DNA of 64,000 nt. Source: Amphiplicatus metriothermophilus. GTDB taxonomy: Bacteria; Pseudomonadota; Alphaproteobacteria; Caulobacterales; Parvularculaceae. Positions 26,358 to 33,844 of this stretch are shown one piece after another. Position 1 is the first letter of the stretch, and every line of letters begins with the position of its first letter. A program made the translations under genes and the position numbers. Under the pieces are notes generated by a model, which was not told the origin of the DNA, made no database searches, and saw only the letters and a list, made by a program, of their open reading frames with translations. Where the stretch lies: NCBI RefSeq assembly GCF_900199215.1, contig NZ_FZQA01000003.1, forward strand, positions 248,001 through 312,000. The letters run 5' to 3'.

Positions 26358-29294
26358 ATGAGCGCCTTTTCTTCTGACTCTCTGGCGAGCCGGATTCAGG
26401 ATATTCCGCGCGTCTACGACGAGGCGGCGGCGGGACGGCTGCAAGAGGCGCTGGGGGGGATCTGGGGGCGCTTGCCGCCGTCGGCCCAGGCGCTCGCACG
26501 CGCCGTGGGCGGCGCTTCACCGTATCTCAGCCGGCTCATGGCGCGCGACGCCGGAGGCGTCCTCGCTCTGTTCGAGCGCTCCCTTGAGGCGACGCTAGAC
26601 AGTGTACTCGAGGCGGCCGACCGCGCCGGCGATGCGGACGATCTTGCCTACGTCATGCGCGCGCTGCGCAAGGCCAAAGACGAGGCTGCGCTCGCGATTG
26701 GCCTTGCCGAGATCGCCGGCGTCTGGACGAGCCTTGAGGCCGGCGCGGCGCTGGCCGACTTTGCGGACGCCGCCGCGGGAGCCGCGTTGCGGGCGGCGTT
26801 GCGGGGGCTTGGGAGCAAAGGGCTTCGCAACGCGGACCGTCCGCGCTGCGAGGAAGAATCCGGCATCTCCGTCATCGCGATGGGCAAGCATGGCGCGCGC
26901 GAGCTCAACTACTCCAGCGACATCGACCTCATCGTTCTGTTCGATCCGGAAGCCCCGGCTTTGGGCGATCCGTTGAGCGCTCGCGAGATCGCAATCGCTG
27001 CGGCGCGCACGCTCGTTCGTCTCCTCAACGAACAGACGGCTGATGGATATGTTTTCCGCACCGATTTGCGGCTGCGGCCCGATCCGGGCGTATCTGCGGC
27101 GGCGGTGTCGACGCGCGCCGCCGAAGCTTATTATGAAGCGCACGGACAAAACTGGGAGCGCGCGGCTTTTATCAAGGCTCGCGCAGCCGCTGGCGACCGC
27201 GCCGTGGGCGAAACGTTTCTAAAGGCGTTGCGCCCATTCGTGTGGCGCAAGTATCTTGATTTCGCGGCGATAGAAGACATCCATTCCATCAAACGCCAGA
27301 TTCACGCGGCGAAGGGCGGCGAGGCGCTTGAATTTTACGGGCATGACATCAAGACAGGGCGTGGGGGCATCCGCGAGATCGAATTTCTCGCCCAGACGCA
27401 GCAACTCATTCTCGGCGGCAAGAATCCAGATTTGCGCGCGTCGGCGACCATCGACGCCCTTGCTGCGCTTAACCGAGCCGGTCAGGTCTCGGATGAAGCG
27501 TTGGAAAAGCTGACGGCCGCCTATCGCTATCTTAGAAAAGTCGAACATCGCCTTCAGATGATTAACGATGAGCAGACGCATCGGATCCCGCGCGACCCGG
27601 GCGGCGTTGAAAGGCTTGCAGCTTTTCTAGGCGAAGAAAGCGCGGCTGAATTTGAAACGCGTCTTACAGAAACCTTGAGAAACGCTCATGACCTTTTTGC
27701 GGAATTATTCGAACGCGAGGAAAGACTGTCCGGCGAAGGCGGCAGCCTGATTTTCACCGGCGTTGAAAATCATCCGGCGACGTTGGAGACGCTGGAGAAG
27801 CTCGGCTTCGAGCGCGCGGTCGACGTCAGCGACACGATCCGCCGCTGGCATACGGGGGCTTATCGCGCGACCCGGTCCGCGCGCGCGCGCGAGCTGTTGA
27901 CAAAGCTCGTGCCGGGTTTGCTGGAATCGCTGGGAAAGGCCGGCGATCCGGACGCCGCCTTCGTGGCATTCGATCAGTTCCTCTCGCGCTTGCCTGCGGG
28001 AGTGCAGGTGTTCGCGCTGTTCGCGAACAATCCGCATGTCTTCGACATACTTGTGCGCATTATGACGATTTCTCCGTATCTGGGACGCGAGCTGTCGAAA
28101 CGGCTGCATCTGATTGAGGCGGTGTTGGAAAGCGGCTGGCCCGGACAGCTGCCGGATCCGGAAAGCTTCCTGCCGGAGCTACAGAACCGGCTTGTAAAGG
28201 CCGAGACATACGAGGCGCGTCTCAACGAGGCGCGGCGCTGGGCCTCTGAGCAGAACTTCGAAATCGCCGCGCAGCTCATCCTTGATCTAATCTCTCCTGA
28301 AGAAGCCGCGCGCCTGTTCACCGCGGCGGCCGACGCGGCGATTCAGGGCCTCCTACCTGTCGCGCGCGAGGAAATCGAGCGCAGCCACGGCCGCATCGAA
28401 GGCGGTCTCGCCGTGTTGGGGCTCGGCCGGCTCGGCGCCGGCGCGATGACGGCGAGCTCCGACATTGATCTCGTCTTCATCTACGAGGCGACGGAGGGCG
28501 CCGTCTCGACCGGTCCCAAACAGCTCGAAGCGGCGGATTATTTCATCAGGCTGGTGCGTCGCTTTTTGACCGCCCTGTCGGCGAACACCGAAGAAGGGGC
28601 GCTCTATGACGTTGACATGCAGCTTCGACCGTCAGGCGGGAAGGGGCCCTGGGCGGTCACCTTGGCGTCGTTCGAACGCTATTATGAGGCCGACGCTTGG
28701 ACATGGGAGGAGTCCGCGCTTCTGAAGGCGCGGATCGTCGCGGGCGATGCGGCGGTCTGCGCGCGCGTGAGGGGCGCGATCGACGCCGTGATCGCCCGCC
28801 CGCGCGATTCGGCGAAGGTGGCCCGCGACATCGACGACATGCGCGAGCGGCTGCTTTCGGCGAAGCCGGCGACCGGCCCCTGGGACCTGAAACAGGCGTT
28901 GGGCGGTCTCGCCGAGCTCGATTTCATCCTGGCGTTTCACGCTCTCACGGCGGGGGCCGAGGTCGGAGCGCCCCCTCCCGGCATACGCGCGATGGCCGGC
29001 TTTTTGCGTGATCGCGGCGTGATCGACACCGCGACGGCGGATGTCATATTAACCGCGTCCGAACGATTTGAGGCTGTAATGCAGGTGGGCCGGGCGGCGA
29101 CGGGGAGCGGTTTCGCGCCGGAGAACGCGGGCGAGGCCATGAAAACGCGAATGGCGGCGGCCTGCGGCGTTTCCACTATTGAGCAGGCCGAGAAGAGCCT
29201 CGCCGCGCTTCAGACCGCCGTCAGAAGCCTTTATGAAAGGACGATCCTTGCGGCGGCCGGCGCGCCGGACCTGCCGACTGGCTGGAAAAGTTAA
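26358..29294 (+). CDS. glnE: Bifunctional glutamine synthetase adenylyltransferase / adenylyl-removing enzyme
   Basis: A 978-residue protein with two nucleotidyltransferase domains. The N-terminal (deadenylylating) domain has SDIDLIVLFDPEAP near residue 187 and GRGGIREIEFLAQ after it; the C-terminal (adenylylating) domain has SDIDLVFIYEATEG near residue 699 and a degenerate second element LGGLAELDFILAF. It modifies Tyr397 of GlnA under control of PII; both targets are encoded 11-12 kb upstream in this window. It follows the sensor kinase by 43 bases, possibly cotranscribed. Confidence 0.95.
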   Translation: MSAFSSDSLASRIQDIPRVYDEAAAGRLQEALGGIWGRLPPSAQALARAVGGASPYLSRLMARDAGGVLALFERSLEATLDSVLEAADRAGDADDLAYVMRALRKAKDEAALAIGLAEIAGVWTSLEAGAALADFADAAAGAALRAALRGLGSKGLRNADRPRCEEESGISVIAMGKHGARELNYSSDIDLIVLFDPEAPALGDPLSAREIAIAAARTLVRLLNEQTADGYVFRTDLRLRPDPGVSAAAVSTRAAEAYYEAHGQNWERAAFIKARAAAGDRAVGETFLKALRPFVWRKYLDFAAIEDIHSIKRQIHAAKGGEALEFYGHDIKTGRGGIREIEFLAQTQQLILGGKNPDLRASATIDALAALNRAGQVSDEALEKLTAAYRYLRKVEHRLQMINDEQTHRIPRDPGGVERLAAFLGEESAAEFETRLTETLRNAHDLFAELFEREERLSGEGGSLIFTGVENHPATLETLEKLGFERAVDVSDTIRRWHTGAYRATRSARARELLTKLVPGLLESLGKAGDPDAAFVAFDQFLSRLPAGVQVFALFANNPHVFDILVRIMTISPYLGRELSKRLHLIEAVLESGWPGQLPDPESFLPELQNRLVKAETYEARLNEARRWASEQNFEIAAQLILDLISPEEAARLFTAAADAAIQGLLPVAREEIERSHGRIEGGLAVLGLGRLGAGAMTASSDIDLVFIYEATEGAVSTGPKQLEAADYFIRLVRRFLTALSANTEEGALYDVDMQLRPSGGKGPWAVTLASFERYYEADAWTWEESALLKARIVAGDAAVCARVRGAIDAVIARPRDSAKVARDIDDMRERLLSAKPATGPWDLKQALGGLAELDFILAFHALTAGAEVGAPPPGIRAMAGFLRDRGVIDTATADVILTASERFEAVMQVGRAATGSGFAPENAGEAMKTRMAAACGVSTIEQAEKSLAALQTAVRSLYERTILAAAGAPDLPTGWKS

Positions 29295-29299
29295 AGGTC

Positions 29300-30640
29300 A
29301 TGAAACAGCGCCGTCAGTTCGATCTGGTGATCGTCGGCGCCGACGCGCCGGGGCTGGCGGCGGCGGCCTGCGCGGCGCGGCGGCGAGCGGACATTGAGCT
29401 GCGCGTGGCGGTCGTGCGGACCGGCGACGAACCTTCGCACGGCGCTTCTGCGCCGGGCGTGCCGGATTTCGTCTGGCGGCAGCTGGACCTTCACCGGACC
29501 GCCCTGCAAGCCCGCCCTGTCGAGGCGCTGGTGTCGGTTTTCGAGGACGGGCGCATGCTTGCCACGAGCCGAAACGGGCAGCGGATGAAGCAGATCCTGG
29601 ACGAGGCCTGTGGCGGCATACATAATTTGTACACTGATTTTTCTGCGGAGATGCGGCGGTTATGGAATCGTGCGGATGAAATCATGCATGGCGAAGCGGC
29701 CAGGCCGTTCGGCGGCGCATTGCTCGCCGCTCTGGCGAGCGAGGACTCTACAGCGCTCGCCTTGTCGATGACTCAGGACTGCGAAGCGCTGCTCGACGAT
29801 TACTTCTCTGACGAAGCGTTCAAGACTCATCTGACGAGCGTCGCTCTTATGCCTTTCGGTCTAGGCGGCGACGAGCCCGGCTCTGCGCTCGCCCTGGCCG
29901 CCGCCAATGCGCCCGCGGCATGGCGGCTCCGCGCTGGCGATCGCGAGCCTTCGCTTGTGAAAGTGCTTGAGGACGTTTGCAAAGCCGCGAGCGTGGCGAT
30001 CATAGACGGCGCCGTGCGCGACATCGAAGCGCCCGACGACAAGACCCGCCATGTCATCTTGAGCGACGGCGAGGCGCTACGCACGCCGATCGTCATGGCC
30101 TCTCGCGCCATGTCGGAGATCGCGGCGCGCCTCGGCGCCGCTTCCGCCGCGTCGACGCCTATGGGGAGACGGGAAGGCGCCTGCGCAGAAGCGCGCGTGA
30201 AACTTGCTCGTCCCGCCGATCCGCCGGGCGGCAGCACCGCCGCGATCTTCTATGCCGCGGGATCAATCGATGCGTTGCAGGCGGCGCGCGACGCGGCCCT
30301 CGTCGGGCGATTGCCCGACGATCCGCCCATCTATTTTGAGTTCGTGCGGGATGAGATCCATGTGCGCGCCCCATACTGCCCGGCTGTGTTCTATACGGAC
30401 GACCAGCCGCGCGATTGGAGCGAACAGGATCGCCAGGCGCTCGGCCGCCAGCTCGCGCGTCGGCTCAGCAAGCTTCTTAACGGCGCCGCCCATGATGTGC
30501 GCCGCGTCGACGTGAAGGTGTTTGTCCGTTCGCCCGCGAAAAGCGCGCGCGGGCCGGGAGTTCTGATCGTTCCCCCGGCATGTCACGATGAGATCGGCGC
30601 GGCGGCGCGTCTTGCGATGGATCTTGTGCATGGCGCATGA
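29300..30640 (+). CDS. Degenerate FAD/NAD(P)-binding protein, phytoene-desaturase-like
   Basis: A 446-residue protein whose N-terminus DLVIVGADAPGLAAAACAA has the layout of the FAD-binding Rossmann motif but with aspartate in place of the middle glycine of GxGxxG. The middle part (residues 100-250) is helical and resembles the substrate domain of carotenoid desaturase-like proteins; the C-terminal glycine-rich flavin motif is not recognisable. It starts 6 bases after glnE and overlaps the next, related gene by 11 bases. It may be a non-catalytic partner subunit; this is inference. No signal peptide. Confidence 0.6.
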   Translation: MKQRRQFDLVIVGADAPGLAAAACAARRRADIELRVAVVRTGDEPSHGASAPGVPDFVWRQLDLHRTALQARPVEALVSVFEDGRMLATSRNGQRMKQILDEACGGIHNLYTDFSAEMRRLWNRADEIMHGEAARPFGGALLAALASEDSTALALSMTQDCEALLDDYFSDEAFKTHLTSVALMPFGLGGDEPGSALALAAANAPAAWRLRAGDREPSLVKVLEDVCKAASVAIIDGAVRDIEAPDDKTRHVILSDGEALRTPIVMASRAMSEIAARLGAASAASTPMGRREGACAEARVKLARPADPPGGSTAAIFYAAGSIDALQAARDAALVGRLPDDPPIYFEFVRDEIHVRAPYCPAVFYTDDQPRDWSEQDRQALGRQLARRLSKLLNGAAHDVRRVDVKVFVRSPAKSARGPGVLIVPPACHDEIGAAARLAMDLVHGA

Positions 30641-32219
30641 AGCGACGGATTTATTGACGGAGCCAAAAGAAGCGCTGGCGCCGTCCGCTTCGTCAGAGCC
30701 GGTAGATCAACCGCGCCCTTCGCCGCGCGGACGAATCGAAGGCGGCGTCGACGCGCTGGTCCTCGGCGCGACTTTCGACGGCCTTGCTGCGGCCGCTCTG
30801 CTGGGCAAGGCCGGACTCAAGACGATTCTTCTTGGCGGCGAGGAGGCGGAGCCTTCAATACGGGAGTTCGCGCCTGGCTATCGTTGCGTCGACGGCGAGC
30901 ATCTTGTAGGCGCGCTAGATCCTGAGCTTGTCTCGGCGCTCGATCTTTACCGGCATGGGCTTGCATATGCCGCCCGTCGGCTCGATACGGTCTATTTTTT
31001 TTCGGACGGAGCGGCGCTTCTCACAGATGGCGACATCTATCGTCTGCGAGAGTCGGTCGCCGCCATGAGCGAAGCGGACGCGGCGGCCTTCGCCGCTTTC
31101 GCCGAGCGCGCCCTCGATGCGGCGCAAATCCTGCGCGGCGTTTTCGAGGGGGGCGATATGAGCGATCTTCCGGCCGCGCTCGCCGACGGAATGCGCAGGG
31201 CGCTGCATGACAGCCTCGAGGAGGTTCTAGACGATACCTTTACGGACGAACGGCTCAAGGCGATGCTCGCCGCCGAAGGCTCGTTCAGAAGCGCCGCCCG
31301 GCCCGGCGATCCGTTTACATTCGTGTCGCTTGTTCGCCGTTGGGCGGGGGAAGCGGCAGGATTGCAGGGCGCGTTCGCTTATCCGGAAGGGGGCGCTCTC
31401 GGCGTTCACAAAGCGGCGCGGCGCGCCGCTGAGGCGGGCCGGGTGGACTTTCGGCTGGCGGCCGCCGTCAAGAGCGTGCTCGTCGAATGGGACGGCGTCG
31501 CCGGCGTCGAAACGGAAGACGGCGGGCAGATTCGCGCGCCGATCGTCGTCTGCGCGCTCGACGCCCGCCGCGCCTTTTCCGGGCTCATCGGCGCCAATGC
31601 CCTCGACATCGAGTTTCAGGCCGGATTGATCGCCCCTGCGCCGCAGATCGCCTCCGTGCGCGTGAATTTCGCGCTCGCCGGCGGCCTTCCGGAAGGGCGC
31701 GCCAAGCCCCATCTGGCGCGCCGTCTCTTTTATGCGCCGAGCCGGCTGGAGCTGCGCCGCGCCTATAACGCCGCACGGGAAGGCTGGCGCGAGGGCGAGC
31801 CGGCGGCGCCGCTCATCATGGAGGTCGTTTTCCCAAGCGCGCTCGAAGCTGGTCTCGCGCCCGCGAACGGGCCGGAGCAGGGGCATGTCGCCTCCGCCTT
31901 GCTCCATCCTGCGCCCTATCGTCTGGAAGCTGACGAATCCTTCGCCCGGGCGGTCGAACGCGCCGCGCGCGCGACATTCGAAAAAATCGCCCCAGGGGTT
32001 TCCGCGCGCATTCGCGCGGTTGATATTCGCCTTCCGCCTGAGCCTGCCGCGCCGCCCGTTCTGGCGGCATGGGCGCGCGCCCGCCATGTCGCCGCCGCTT
32101 CGGGCGTGCGCGGGCTGTTCTTTTGCGGTCCTGAAGCCCAAGTGGGGCCCGGAATTCAGGGCGCCGCCGCACGACGCGCCGCGCAGGCGGCGATCCGGTA
32201 TCACAGGGGCAGGGGATAA
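30630..32219 (+). CDS. FAD-dependent oxidoreductase, phytoene-dehydrogenase-like, atypical Rossmann motif
   Basis: A 529-residue protein. After a 38-residue proline/glutamate-rich leader comes DALVLGATFDGLAAAALLGKAG, a dinucleotide-binding fold in which threonine replaces the middle glycine of GxGxxG. The C-terminal FFCGPEAQVGPGIQGAAARRAA keeps the shape of the carotenoid desaturase flavin motif, so this partner is better conserved than the gene before it. The start at 30630 lies inside the upstream gene; the stop overlaps the GcvT-like start by one base. Substrate unknown. Confidence 0.7.
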   Translation: MAHEATDLLTEPKEALAPSASSEPVDQPRPSPRGRIEGGVDALVLGATFDGLAAAALLGKAGLKTILLGGEEAEPSIREFAPGYRCVDGEHLVGALDPELVSALDLYRHGLAYAARRLDTVYFFSDGAALLTDGDIYRLRESVAAMSEADAAAFAAFAERALDAAQILRGVFEGGDMSDLPAALADGMRRALHDSLEEVLDDTFTDERLKAMLAAEGSFRSAARPGDPFTFVSLVRRWAGEAAGLQGAFAYPEGGALGVHKAARRAAEAGRVDFRLAAAVKSVLVEWDGVAGVETEDGGQIRAPIVVCALDARRAFSGLIGANALDIEFQAGLIAPAPQIASVRVNFALAGGLPEGRAKPHLARRLFYAPSRLELRRAYNAAREGWREGEPAAPLIMEVVFPSALEAGLAPANGPEQGHVASALLHPAPYRLEADESFARAVERAARATFEKIAPGVSARIRAVDIRLPPEPAAPPVLAAWARARHVAAASGVRGLFFCGPEAQVGPGIQGAAARRAAQAAIRYHRGRG

Positions 32220-33385
32220 TGATCTTTCCGGCGGACAATCCCTGCACGGAAGACCCGAGCCCGACGGCCCTCTTCTCCGCTGTCGCTTCCGCCGCGCGGG
32301 CCAACAGCTGGACATCGGTCAACGGCCTGGCGACCCCGCGCGCCTATTCGAATGTCGCGGAGGAATATGAGGCGGCTCACGCCAGCGCTGTCATGGCGGA
32401 CTTCGGGCCGATCATTCGGTACACGGTGCGCGGATCGGATGCGGCCGCGCTGCTTTCGCGCGTGACGAGCGCGCCTGCGTCAGGTCTGATCCCGGGAGAA
32501 AGCGCGCGCGGGCTTATGCTCGACGCGGGCGGATTCGTGGTTGATATCGTCGAGGCGACGCGACTTGCAGAGGAGCTTTTTCTGCTTTCGACATCTCTGC
32601 GTCATGCCCGCAGGATGCAGCTCGCCGCCCGCGGCTTCGAAGCGACGGTCGAGGAGATCACCCAACGAGTCGCGGCGCTTGCGATCCTGGGGCCGGAGGC
32701 GCGCGACGCGGCCGCCGCAGCCGGCCTTGACGCAGCAAGCGAGACTCTTGCACGGCAAAAGCGCGTGCGCGGCGTCGAAACCTGCGCGCGCCCCGTCCAT
32801 TTCGGCGCGCTCCCGGGCGTAGAAGTCATCTTCCCTTATGAAGAAGCGCTTGTCTTGTGGGAGCGGTTGCGGCGCGCCCGCGCGCCGACGCCGATCGGCC
32901 TTGACGCGCTGGAGATCATCCGGATCGAGGGCGGCACGCCGCGTCCGGGGCTGGATTTCATCAACGCCGACGCCGTGTCGCATGGTGATGACAAACGTTC
33001 GCCGGATGAGATCGGCCTTGTTCATCTCGCCCCGCTGGACCGGGCCTGGTTCAATGGACGGCGGGCGCTTGCTCAAGCGCCGCGGCGCCGCCGGATGCTG
33101 GCTGTCGTGATCCTTGATGCGGATGAAACCTCGCCCGGCGCCCCCGTTCATGGACGGAAAGGTCCGGTCGGGCGAATCACGTCCTGGGCATGGTCGCCGC
33201 GTTTGAGGCGCGCAGCGGCTTTCGCGGAGCTTTCTGCGGAGGCTTTCGCCCGGACCGAAGATCTTGTCGTTATCGGGCGGGGCGGGGGGGCGCCTGTCGC
33301 GGCGCGCCTGTTCGAGACGCCGGAAAGTCGTCTTGCCCAGGCTTTCCGGGCCTCCCAGCGTCAGGCGACGGAATCGGCCGGCTGA
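32219..33385 (+). CDS. GcvT-like folate-binding aminomethyltransferase-family protein
   Basis: A 388-residue protein of the GcvT/YgfZ/DMSP-demethylase fold. It contains EEYEAAHASAVMADFGPIIRYTVRG (the family's first conserved block with the ADFG turn), ALAILGPEARD, IGLDALEIIRIEGG and a C-terminal barrel domain with GPVGRITSWAWSP. In the family these segments bind tetrahydrofolate and move a one-carbon unit. Coupled to the upstream flavoprotein-like gene by an overlapping stop/start, it completes a three-gene unit; a demethylase-like role for the whole is plausible but unproven. Confidence 0.8.
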   Translation: MIFPADNPCTEDPSPTALFSAVASAARANSWTSVNGLATPRAYSNVAEEYEAAHASAVMADFGPIIRYTVRGSDAAALLSRVTSAPASGLIPGESARGLMLDAGGFVVDIVEATRLAEELFLLSTSLRHARRMQLAARGFEATVEEITQRVAALAILGPEARDAAAAAGLDAASETLARQKRVRGVETCARPVHFGALPGVEVIFPYEEALVLWERLRRARAPTPIGLDALEIIRIEGGTPRPGLDFINADAVSHGDDKRSPDEIGLVHLAPLDRAWFNGRRALAQAPRRRRMLAVVILDADETSPGAPVHGRKGPVGRITSWAWSPRLRRAAAFAELSAEAFARTEDLVVIGRGGGAPVAARLFETPESRLAQAFRASQRQATESAG

Positions 33386-33430: not shown

Positions 33431-33844
33431 ATGAAACGAATGACAGCGCTTCTTCTTTTCACAGGGTTGAGCGTCGCGGCCGGCGTGGCGGCCGCCGCTT
33501 CCGCCGGTCCGGACGGCCGCTGGGAGAAGCTGGACAGAGACGGCGACGGCGCGGTCAGCTTCAGTGAAATGATGGAACGTCACCGCGCCATGTTCGAGGC
33601 CGCCGACGCGAACGGCGACGGCGCGGTCTCAAGAGAGGAAATGAAGGCCTTTCACGAGAAGAAGCGCGCCGAGATGAAGGCGCGTCGGTTCCCCGACCGC
33701 GACGGAGACGGCGTTGTCAGCAAGGCCGAATTCCGCGCTTCGGCGGACGAGCGCTTCGATAGGCTGGACGCCGATGGCGACGGCGTGCTGACGGAAGAGG
33801 AAATGAAAGCCGGCCGTCATGGCTGGAAGCGCCGTCATCATTGA
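33431..33844 (+). CDS. Secreted EF-hand calcium-binding protein
   Basis: A 137-residue protein with a signal peptide (MKRMTALLLFTGLSVAAGVAAAASA) and four EF-hand loops: DRDGDGAVSFSE, DANGDGAVSREE, DRDGDGVVSKAE and DADGDGVLTEEE. All keep the acidic residues at positions 1, 3, 5 and 12, so calcium binding is likely. It ends with a basic HGWKRRHH tail. It stands just upstream of an ECF sigma-factor gene in the same direction. Its role in the periplasm is unknown. Confidence 0.88.
   Translation: MKRMTALLLFTGLSVAAGVAAAASAGPDGRWEKLDRDGDGAVSFSEMMERHRAMFEAADANGDGAVSREEMKAFHEKKRAEMKARRFPDRDGDGVVSKAEFRASADERFDRLDADGDGVLTEEEMKAGRHGWKRRHH

Follow-up and report, generated by a model that had tools for sequence, protein, structure and literature searches.

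A gene trio of Parvularculaceae with degraded FAD motifs and a GcvT-like partner: a derived variant of a widespread alphaproteobacterial unit

The enzymes that oxidise sarcosine and dimethylglycine couple a flavoprotein of the DAO type to a GcvT-like domain. In heterotetrameric sarcosine oxidase, dimethylglycine dehydrogenase/oxidase and TMAO demethylase this domain is part of a longer, fused chain. A different outcome for an FAD-binding fold is seen in Rab-GDI and the Rab escort protein (REP), eukaryotic proteins that bind prenylated Rab GTPases and have kept the fold for another role without FAD. The FAD/NAD(P)-binding fold and superfamily include REP and RabGDI (PMC1994686); the structures of GDI resemble FAD oxidases (PMC4915359). 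We have analyzed a locus of Amphiplicatus metriothermophilus, within a stretch of 64,000 nucleotides (the window), at which two consecutive flavoprotein-like genes (A and B) are followed by a gene for a GcvT-like protein (C).

The three genes form an array with the appearance of a transcription unit (Table 1). They lie on the same strand as glnE and, as the original prediction stated, directly 3' of it, with a gap of 5 nt between the end of the glnE stop codon at 29294 and the start of A. The coupling by overlaps that had also been predicted is confirmed: B begins inside A, with an overlap of 11 nt, and C begins on the final base of the stop codon of B, with an overlap of 1 nt (TAATG). Orthologs of glnE are also found 5' of the trio in loci L119-L122. 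Just 3' of C, at window positions 33431-33844, is a gene for a small protein that looks secreted and has several calcium motifs of the EF-hand-like DxDxDG type.

Table 1. Features of the glnE-A-B-C locus, in positions of the window
Feature	Positions	Strand	Description or evidence
glnE (glutamine synthetase adenylyltransferase)	26358..29294	+	ORF; PF03710 matches (G000:C8:276050)
Gene A	29300..30640	+	446 aa; predicted CrtI/amine-oxidase fold without FAD motifs
Degenerate dinucleotide-binding loop of A, GADAPG, residues 13-18	29336..29353	+	sequence; family motif table
A-specific motif W373-S-E-Q-D-R-Q379 (family WTGQDRQ)	30416..30436	+	W, Q, D, R, Q invariant in 31 aligned sequences
Gene B	30630..32219	+	529 aa; ATG at 30630 to TAA; predicted CrtI/amine-oxidase fold, FAD motifs partly degraded
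Degenerate dinucleotide-binding loop of B, GATFDG, residues 46-51	30765..30782	+	sequence; family motif table
Gene C	32219..33385	+	388 aa; GcvT-like folate-binding-domain protein
C D109-I110, site of the GcvT Asp-Asp pair (T. maritima D95-D96)	32543..32548	+	residue mapping
C E202, site of the pterin-binding Glu195 of GcvT	32822..32824	+	kept in 36/36 sequences with that column

HMM searches and structure prediction, both proposed as checks in the original prediction, point to a CrtI/amine-oxidase fold for A and B and to GCV_T for C. AlphaFold models were built from alignments of 31 family sequences and reached a pLDDT of 88.2 and pTM of 0.90 for A, and 90.0 and 0.88 for B. The best PDB match of each is 4rep (for A, Z 21.3, rmsd 3.8, 392 residues aligned; for B, Z 30.8, rmsd 3.0, 452 aligned), and on these models both proteins are assigned the carotenoid desaturase/amine oxidase fold. 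Rab-GDI structures are also among the fold matches of A, with Z values of 15-16 (15.8). In Pfam, A and B gave only sub-threshold flavoprotein matches, with weak similarity to Lycopene_cycl, GIDA and Amino_oxidase, and no match to the DAO-type family PF01266 was found in either protein at E values up to 1. Among the NCBIfam models, B shows similarity to CrtO, CrtI and CrtD (E 3.7e-13 to 3.9e-10), and A to CrtD at E 5.2e-6, with scores that fall well short of every cut-off; B scores 41.3 bits against TIGR02734 (crtI_fam), whose cut-off is 238.1, and A has no listed match to it. A role in carotenoid synthesis was rejected because of these low family scores and because no carotenoid gene was seen beside the trio. 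C had been described from the outset as GcvT-like, and it matches PF01571 (GCV_T) with an E value of 9.9e-30 and 104.1 bits, against a curated cut-off of 25.6. It also matches 1woo (E 3.9e-15). Its scores lie below the level of GcvT equivalogs (59.7 bits against 235.85 for TIGR00528 and 89.8 against 300 for NF001567), and its C-terminal barrel falls just below the cut-off for that domain.

Judged by its motifs, A has been stripped of essentially every FAD-binding element in Parvularculaceae. The GxGxxG of CrtI-type phytoene desaturases is replaced by GADAPG in the window, and the middle glycine is absent from 31 of the 34 distinct A proteins of the family, 26 of which have Asp instead; three proteins have Gly at this position, and in one genome the loop reads GGGLPG. 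In homologous trios elsewhere the middle glycine of A is intact in 15 of 15. Since the loss recurs throughout the family and the motif is intact outside it, neither chance nor sequencing error can account for it. The acidic residue of strand 2 is kept in none of the 34 family members (Arg in 20), against 14 of 15 outgroup first genes. The GG pair is deleted in 33 of 34 and present in all 15 outgroup first genes, and the C-terminal HPGGG segment, a glycine motif, is deleted in every family member and kept in about 10 of the 15 outgroup sequences. The A protein of the window is some 100 aa shorter than the intact first flavoproteins. Given the known geometry of the fold, FAD is unlikely to be bound by an A protein that has Asp in the pyrophosphate loop and has these deletions. 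Motif loss is in itself no proof that the cofactor is gone; our reading of the sequences is that A has very probably lost it. A has also gained residues that are invariant in the 31 aligned sequences, such as W59, R60, D167, H177 and W373-x-x-Q-D-R-Q.

Unlike A, B is only partly degraded. Its loop reads GATFDG in the window in place of GxGxxG, and the middle glycine is missing from 26 of 34 distinct family B proteins; it is intact in 13 of 14 B proteins of homologous trios elsewhere. The original prediction, that both flavoproteins lack this glycine, is correct for the window but not as a rule for B, since 8 of the 34 family members keep it. The strand-2 acid is kept in 23 of 34 and the GG pair in most. 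The C-terminal flavin motif CG...G is found in 35 of 35 sequences and takes the form FCGPEAQVGPG in the window. The HWHHGEL...DQ...RP segment of the intact enzymes is altered or lost in nearly all family members. The copy in the window is among the more degraded ones, with Thr at the middle glycine, Gly at the strand-2 acid and no GG pair. Thus the two proteins are not the "twin" flavoproteins first described: the suggested loss of FAD binding is well supported by the motif table for A, but B keeps its C-terminal flavin motif throughout. The genome of the window contains a further relative of B, 32% identical (L002, G000:C6:429804-431195), for which the match spans one in-frame TGA; this may be a broken gene, or the match may extend beyond the stop of its gene.

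In C, the equivalent of the first Asp of the GcvT pair (Asp95) is kept in 37 of 37 family proteins, and that of the catalytic Asp96 is absent from all 37, with Leu in 30 and Ile110 in the window. This counts against a GcvT-type reaction. The Tyr83 equivalent has become Arg in 36 family members.

The survey of co-occurrence that had been proposed was carried out on 60 genomes of Parvularculaceae, a family of marine bacteria, and shows a conserved unit. A is present in 37 genomes and is accompanied by orthologs of B and C in 36 of them; in the exception (G036) A lies at a contig edge. No genome of the 60 has C without A. The trio is found in four genera (g1, g2, g4 and g6) and is absent from five, among them g3, g5 and g7, each sampled in at least three genomes. 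All 36 named loci belong to Parvularculaceae (Marinicaulis, Parvularcula and MAGs) or to alphaproteobacterial records that lack a family name, and the degenerate trio is confined to Parvularculaceae. At several loci the whole neighbourhood is shared, from a histidine kinase through glnE and the trio to a second kinase beyond it. In two genomes, G003 (99% complete) and G012 (96% complete), no GlnE match was found, and the trio (L123 and L124, respectively) stands directly behind the histidine kinase that precedes glnE elsewhere. Conversely, G017, G007, G015 and G004 have glnE and no trio. A functional tie to GlnE was rejected on these grounds; the linkage to glnE is old, but the two near-complete genomes indicate that it is not a functional requirement.

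Other alphaproteobacterial families have trios of the same order, with two flavoproteins of about 525-550 aa, both carrying motifs of the GAGHNG type, and a GcvT-like protein. The 142 genomes surveyed across the class yielded 13 trio-type C genes, that of the window included, and for seven of them glnE is on the same strand at a distance of about 10 kb or less. The trio follows glnE at L109, L115, L117, L111, L162 and L163 and is found elsewhere at L106, L107, L108, L113 and L116. The original prediction had named intact homologs unlinked from a GcvT gene as an observation that would speak against it; intact homologs exist, but they too are GcvT-linked. Three intact trios unlinked from glnE occur in Parvularculaceae themselves (L106:5667-10058, L107:1072-5430 and L108:5477-9887); the one at L108 adjoins a Rieske oxygenase and the one at L106 a DAO-type FAD enzyme and an amidohydrolase. 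Two genomes of the family, G014 and G022, contain both a degenerate and an intact trio. In hhalign comparisons A is closer to the intact first genes (E 2.4e-33) than to the second (5.2e-26), and B to the second (5.6e-84) than to the first (2.8e-62). The final ~90 columns of the intact proteins, with the GEL-DQ-RP and HPGGG segments, lie beyond the end of the alignment with A. In trees the Parvularculaceae trio is one fully supported clade, and the trees favour no particular nearest relative, whether among the glnE-linked trios or outside them. Descent of the trio from FAD enzymes paired with a GcvT-like protein is supported by these sequence comparisons. In the glnE-linked intact trios the Tyr188 equivalent of C is already lost, and Asp96 or Asp95 is often lost as well, so that the use of folate is uncertain there too. 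An outgroup trio at L164:4803-8799 on the reverse strand has an intact GAGGDG in A and GGDASG in a shortened B, which indicates that the losses did not occur in one step. Two loci depart from the usual arrangement: L118:4868-8146 has an open frame of 1093 aa, possibly a fusion, whose best match is an intact first flavoprotein, and at L112:7756-10465 two consecutive GcvT-like genes stand behind an intact flavoprotein pair. No paper on the trio was found in the literature searched, although work outside it may exist, nor was a described function for the intact trios found there. The intact kind is thus widespread and, as far as we found, undescribed, and the version in the window is a derived variant of it with systematic loss of cofactor motifs. 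On present evidence it is neither a new fold nor a new pathway. Overall, the interpretation first given to the locus is partly supported.

All three genes are under purifying selection and are in working order rather than in decay. In pairs with dS below about 0.6, dN/dS was 0.09-0.14 for A, 0.07-0.14 for B and 0.03-0.11 for C, and no frame breaks were found in the orthologs used. The progressive loss of motifs, and the outgroup trio in which A is intact and B broken and shortened, could suggest a functionless relic of a demethylase operon. Such a relic is extremely improbable given dN/dS values of 0.03-0.14 in close pairs, unbroken frames, strict co-occurrence and new invariant motifs; simple decay was rejected on dN/dS and co-occurrence. 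Because selection strictly keeps the trio despite the loss of cofactor parts, it probably does something other than its annotated role. The reading that we favour, at about even odds, is of a remodelled folate-linked amine-oxidising complex, in which A serves as an FAD-less partner subunit of B. The ancestor would have been a two-flavoprotein, folate-coupled amine-oxidising (N-demethylating) complex of the kind found across Alphaproteobacteria; its demethylase nature is suggested by the fold, the GcvT partner and the Rieske oxygenase or DAO-type enzyme beside two intact trios. In Parvularculaceae A, without FAD, would have no catalytic part and would hold or shape B in the manner of a prozyme. 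Flavin could then be carried by B alone, in those species at least whose B retains the motifs, and by a site that is weakened at best. C may still use its conserved Glu to bind a pterin or a folate-like ligand, without Asp96-dependent aminomethyl transfer. Co-occurrence and overlapping genes suggest that A, B and C probably form one complex; that this putative complex still carries out one-carbon oxidation is doubtful.

A related possibility, which we consider only tentatively, is that folate-linked oxidative demethylation is still carried out by the trio, with methylated amines oxidised by the flavin of B, the one-carbon unit accepted by C and A purely structural. The flavin motifs that B retains (the strand-2 acid and GG in most species, CG...G in all), the conservation of Glu195 and Asp95 in C, and purifying selection on every gene agree with this, and related GcvT-fold demethylases and demethylenases are counted in its favour since they work with tetrahydrofolate (PMC5547118). 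It is less easily reconciled with the near-universal loss of the HWHHGEL...DQ...RP segment from B, with a B in the window that lacks the middle glycine, the strand-2 acid and GG, or with a C that has lost the catalytic Asp in every family member. At the other extreme, the whole trio might be a non-catalytic, ligand-binding or chaperone-like complex, as Rab-GDI and REP are within the same FAD fold. A has kept its fold, lost all FAD contacts and gained invariant residues, and Rab-GDI is among its closest folds; but the GDI-like Z values lie below that of the carotenoid desaturase, no partner is known, and both the flavin motifs of B in most species and the pterin Glu of C are preserved, and we regard a wholly non-catalytic trio as rather unlikely. 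Less probable again is a bacterial complex made wholly of repurposed one-carbon enzymes, with FAD-less and Asp-less folds, and given a new non-redox task such as ligand carriage or assembly; if real, it would be a bacterial counterpart to the origin of Rab-GDI from an FAD enzyme.

Human PYROXD2 presumably belongs to the same broad CrtI-like group as A and B, and was considered as a possible lead to an N-demethylase role. The PYROXD2 locus associates with trimethylamine and dimethyllysine metabolites (PMC8777681, PMC13352909). As for annotation, these genes would be named a phytoene desaturase-like pair and an aminomethyltransferase; in view of the conserved losses the name is probably mistaken for A, and for C it is doubtful. 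The intact trio, too, is of interest as a widespread candidate for a folate-linked amine oxidase. Since intact and degenerate trios occur in one family, sometimes in one genome, nature provides the controls for a test of how an enzyme becomes a pseudoenzyme.

Among the known systems, the CrtI-type carotenoid desaturases (4rep, 4dgk) have a fold in common with A and B, which differ from them in scoring below all curated cut-offs, in their degraded FAD motifs and in having no carotenoid genes beside them. The GcvT-like domain of heterotetrameric sarcosine oxidase, dimethylglycine dehydrogenase/oxidase and TMAO demethylase is matched by C, and the pairing with a flavoprotein recalls the sarcosine and dimethylglycine enzymes, although in the trio the GcvT-like protein is a separate chain and A and B are CrtI/MAO-like. 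A is likened to Rab-GDI and REP by its fold and by the loss of its FAD motifs. C resembles the aminomethyltransferase GcvT in its PF01571 domain, its pterin Glu and the first Asp of the Asp-Asp pair, and differs in the loss of Asp96, the change of Tyr83 to Arg and a C-terminal barrel just under the cut-off. The intact alphaproteobacterial trios, with GxGxxG, the strand-2 acid and, in most cases, the C-terminal HPGGG preserved in their flavoproteins, share with A-B-C the gene order, gene-by-gene homology, overlapping or abutting genes and often the position after glnE.
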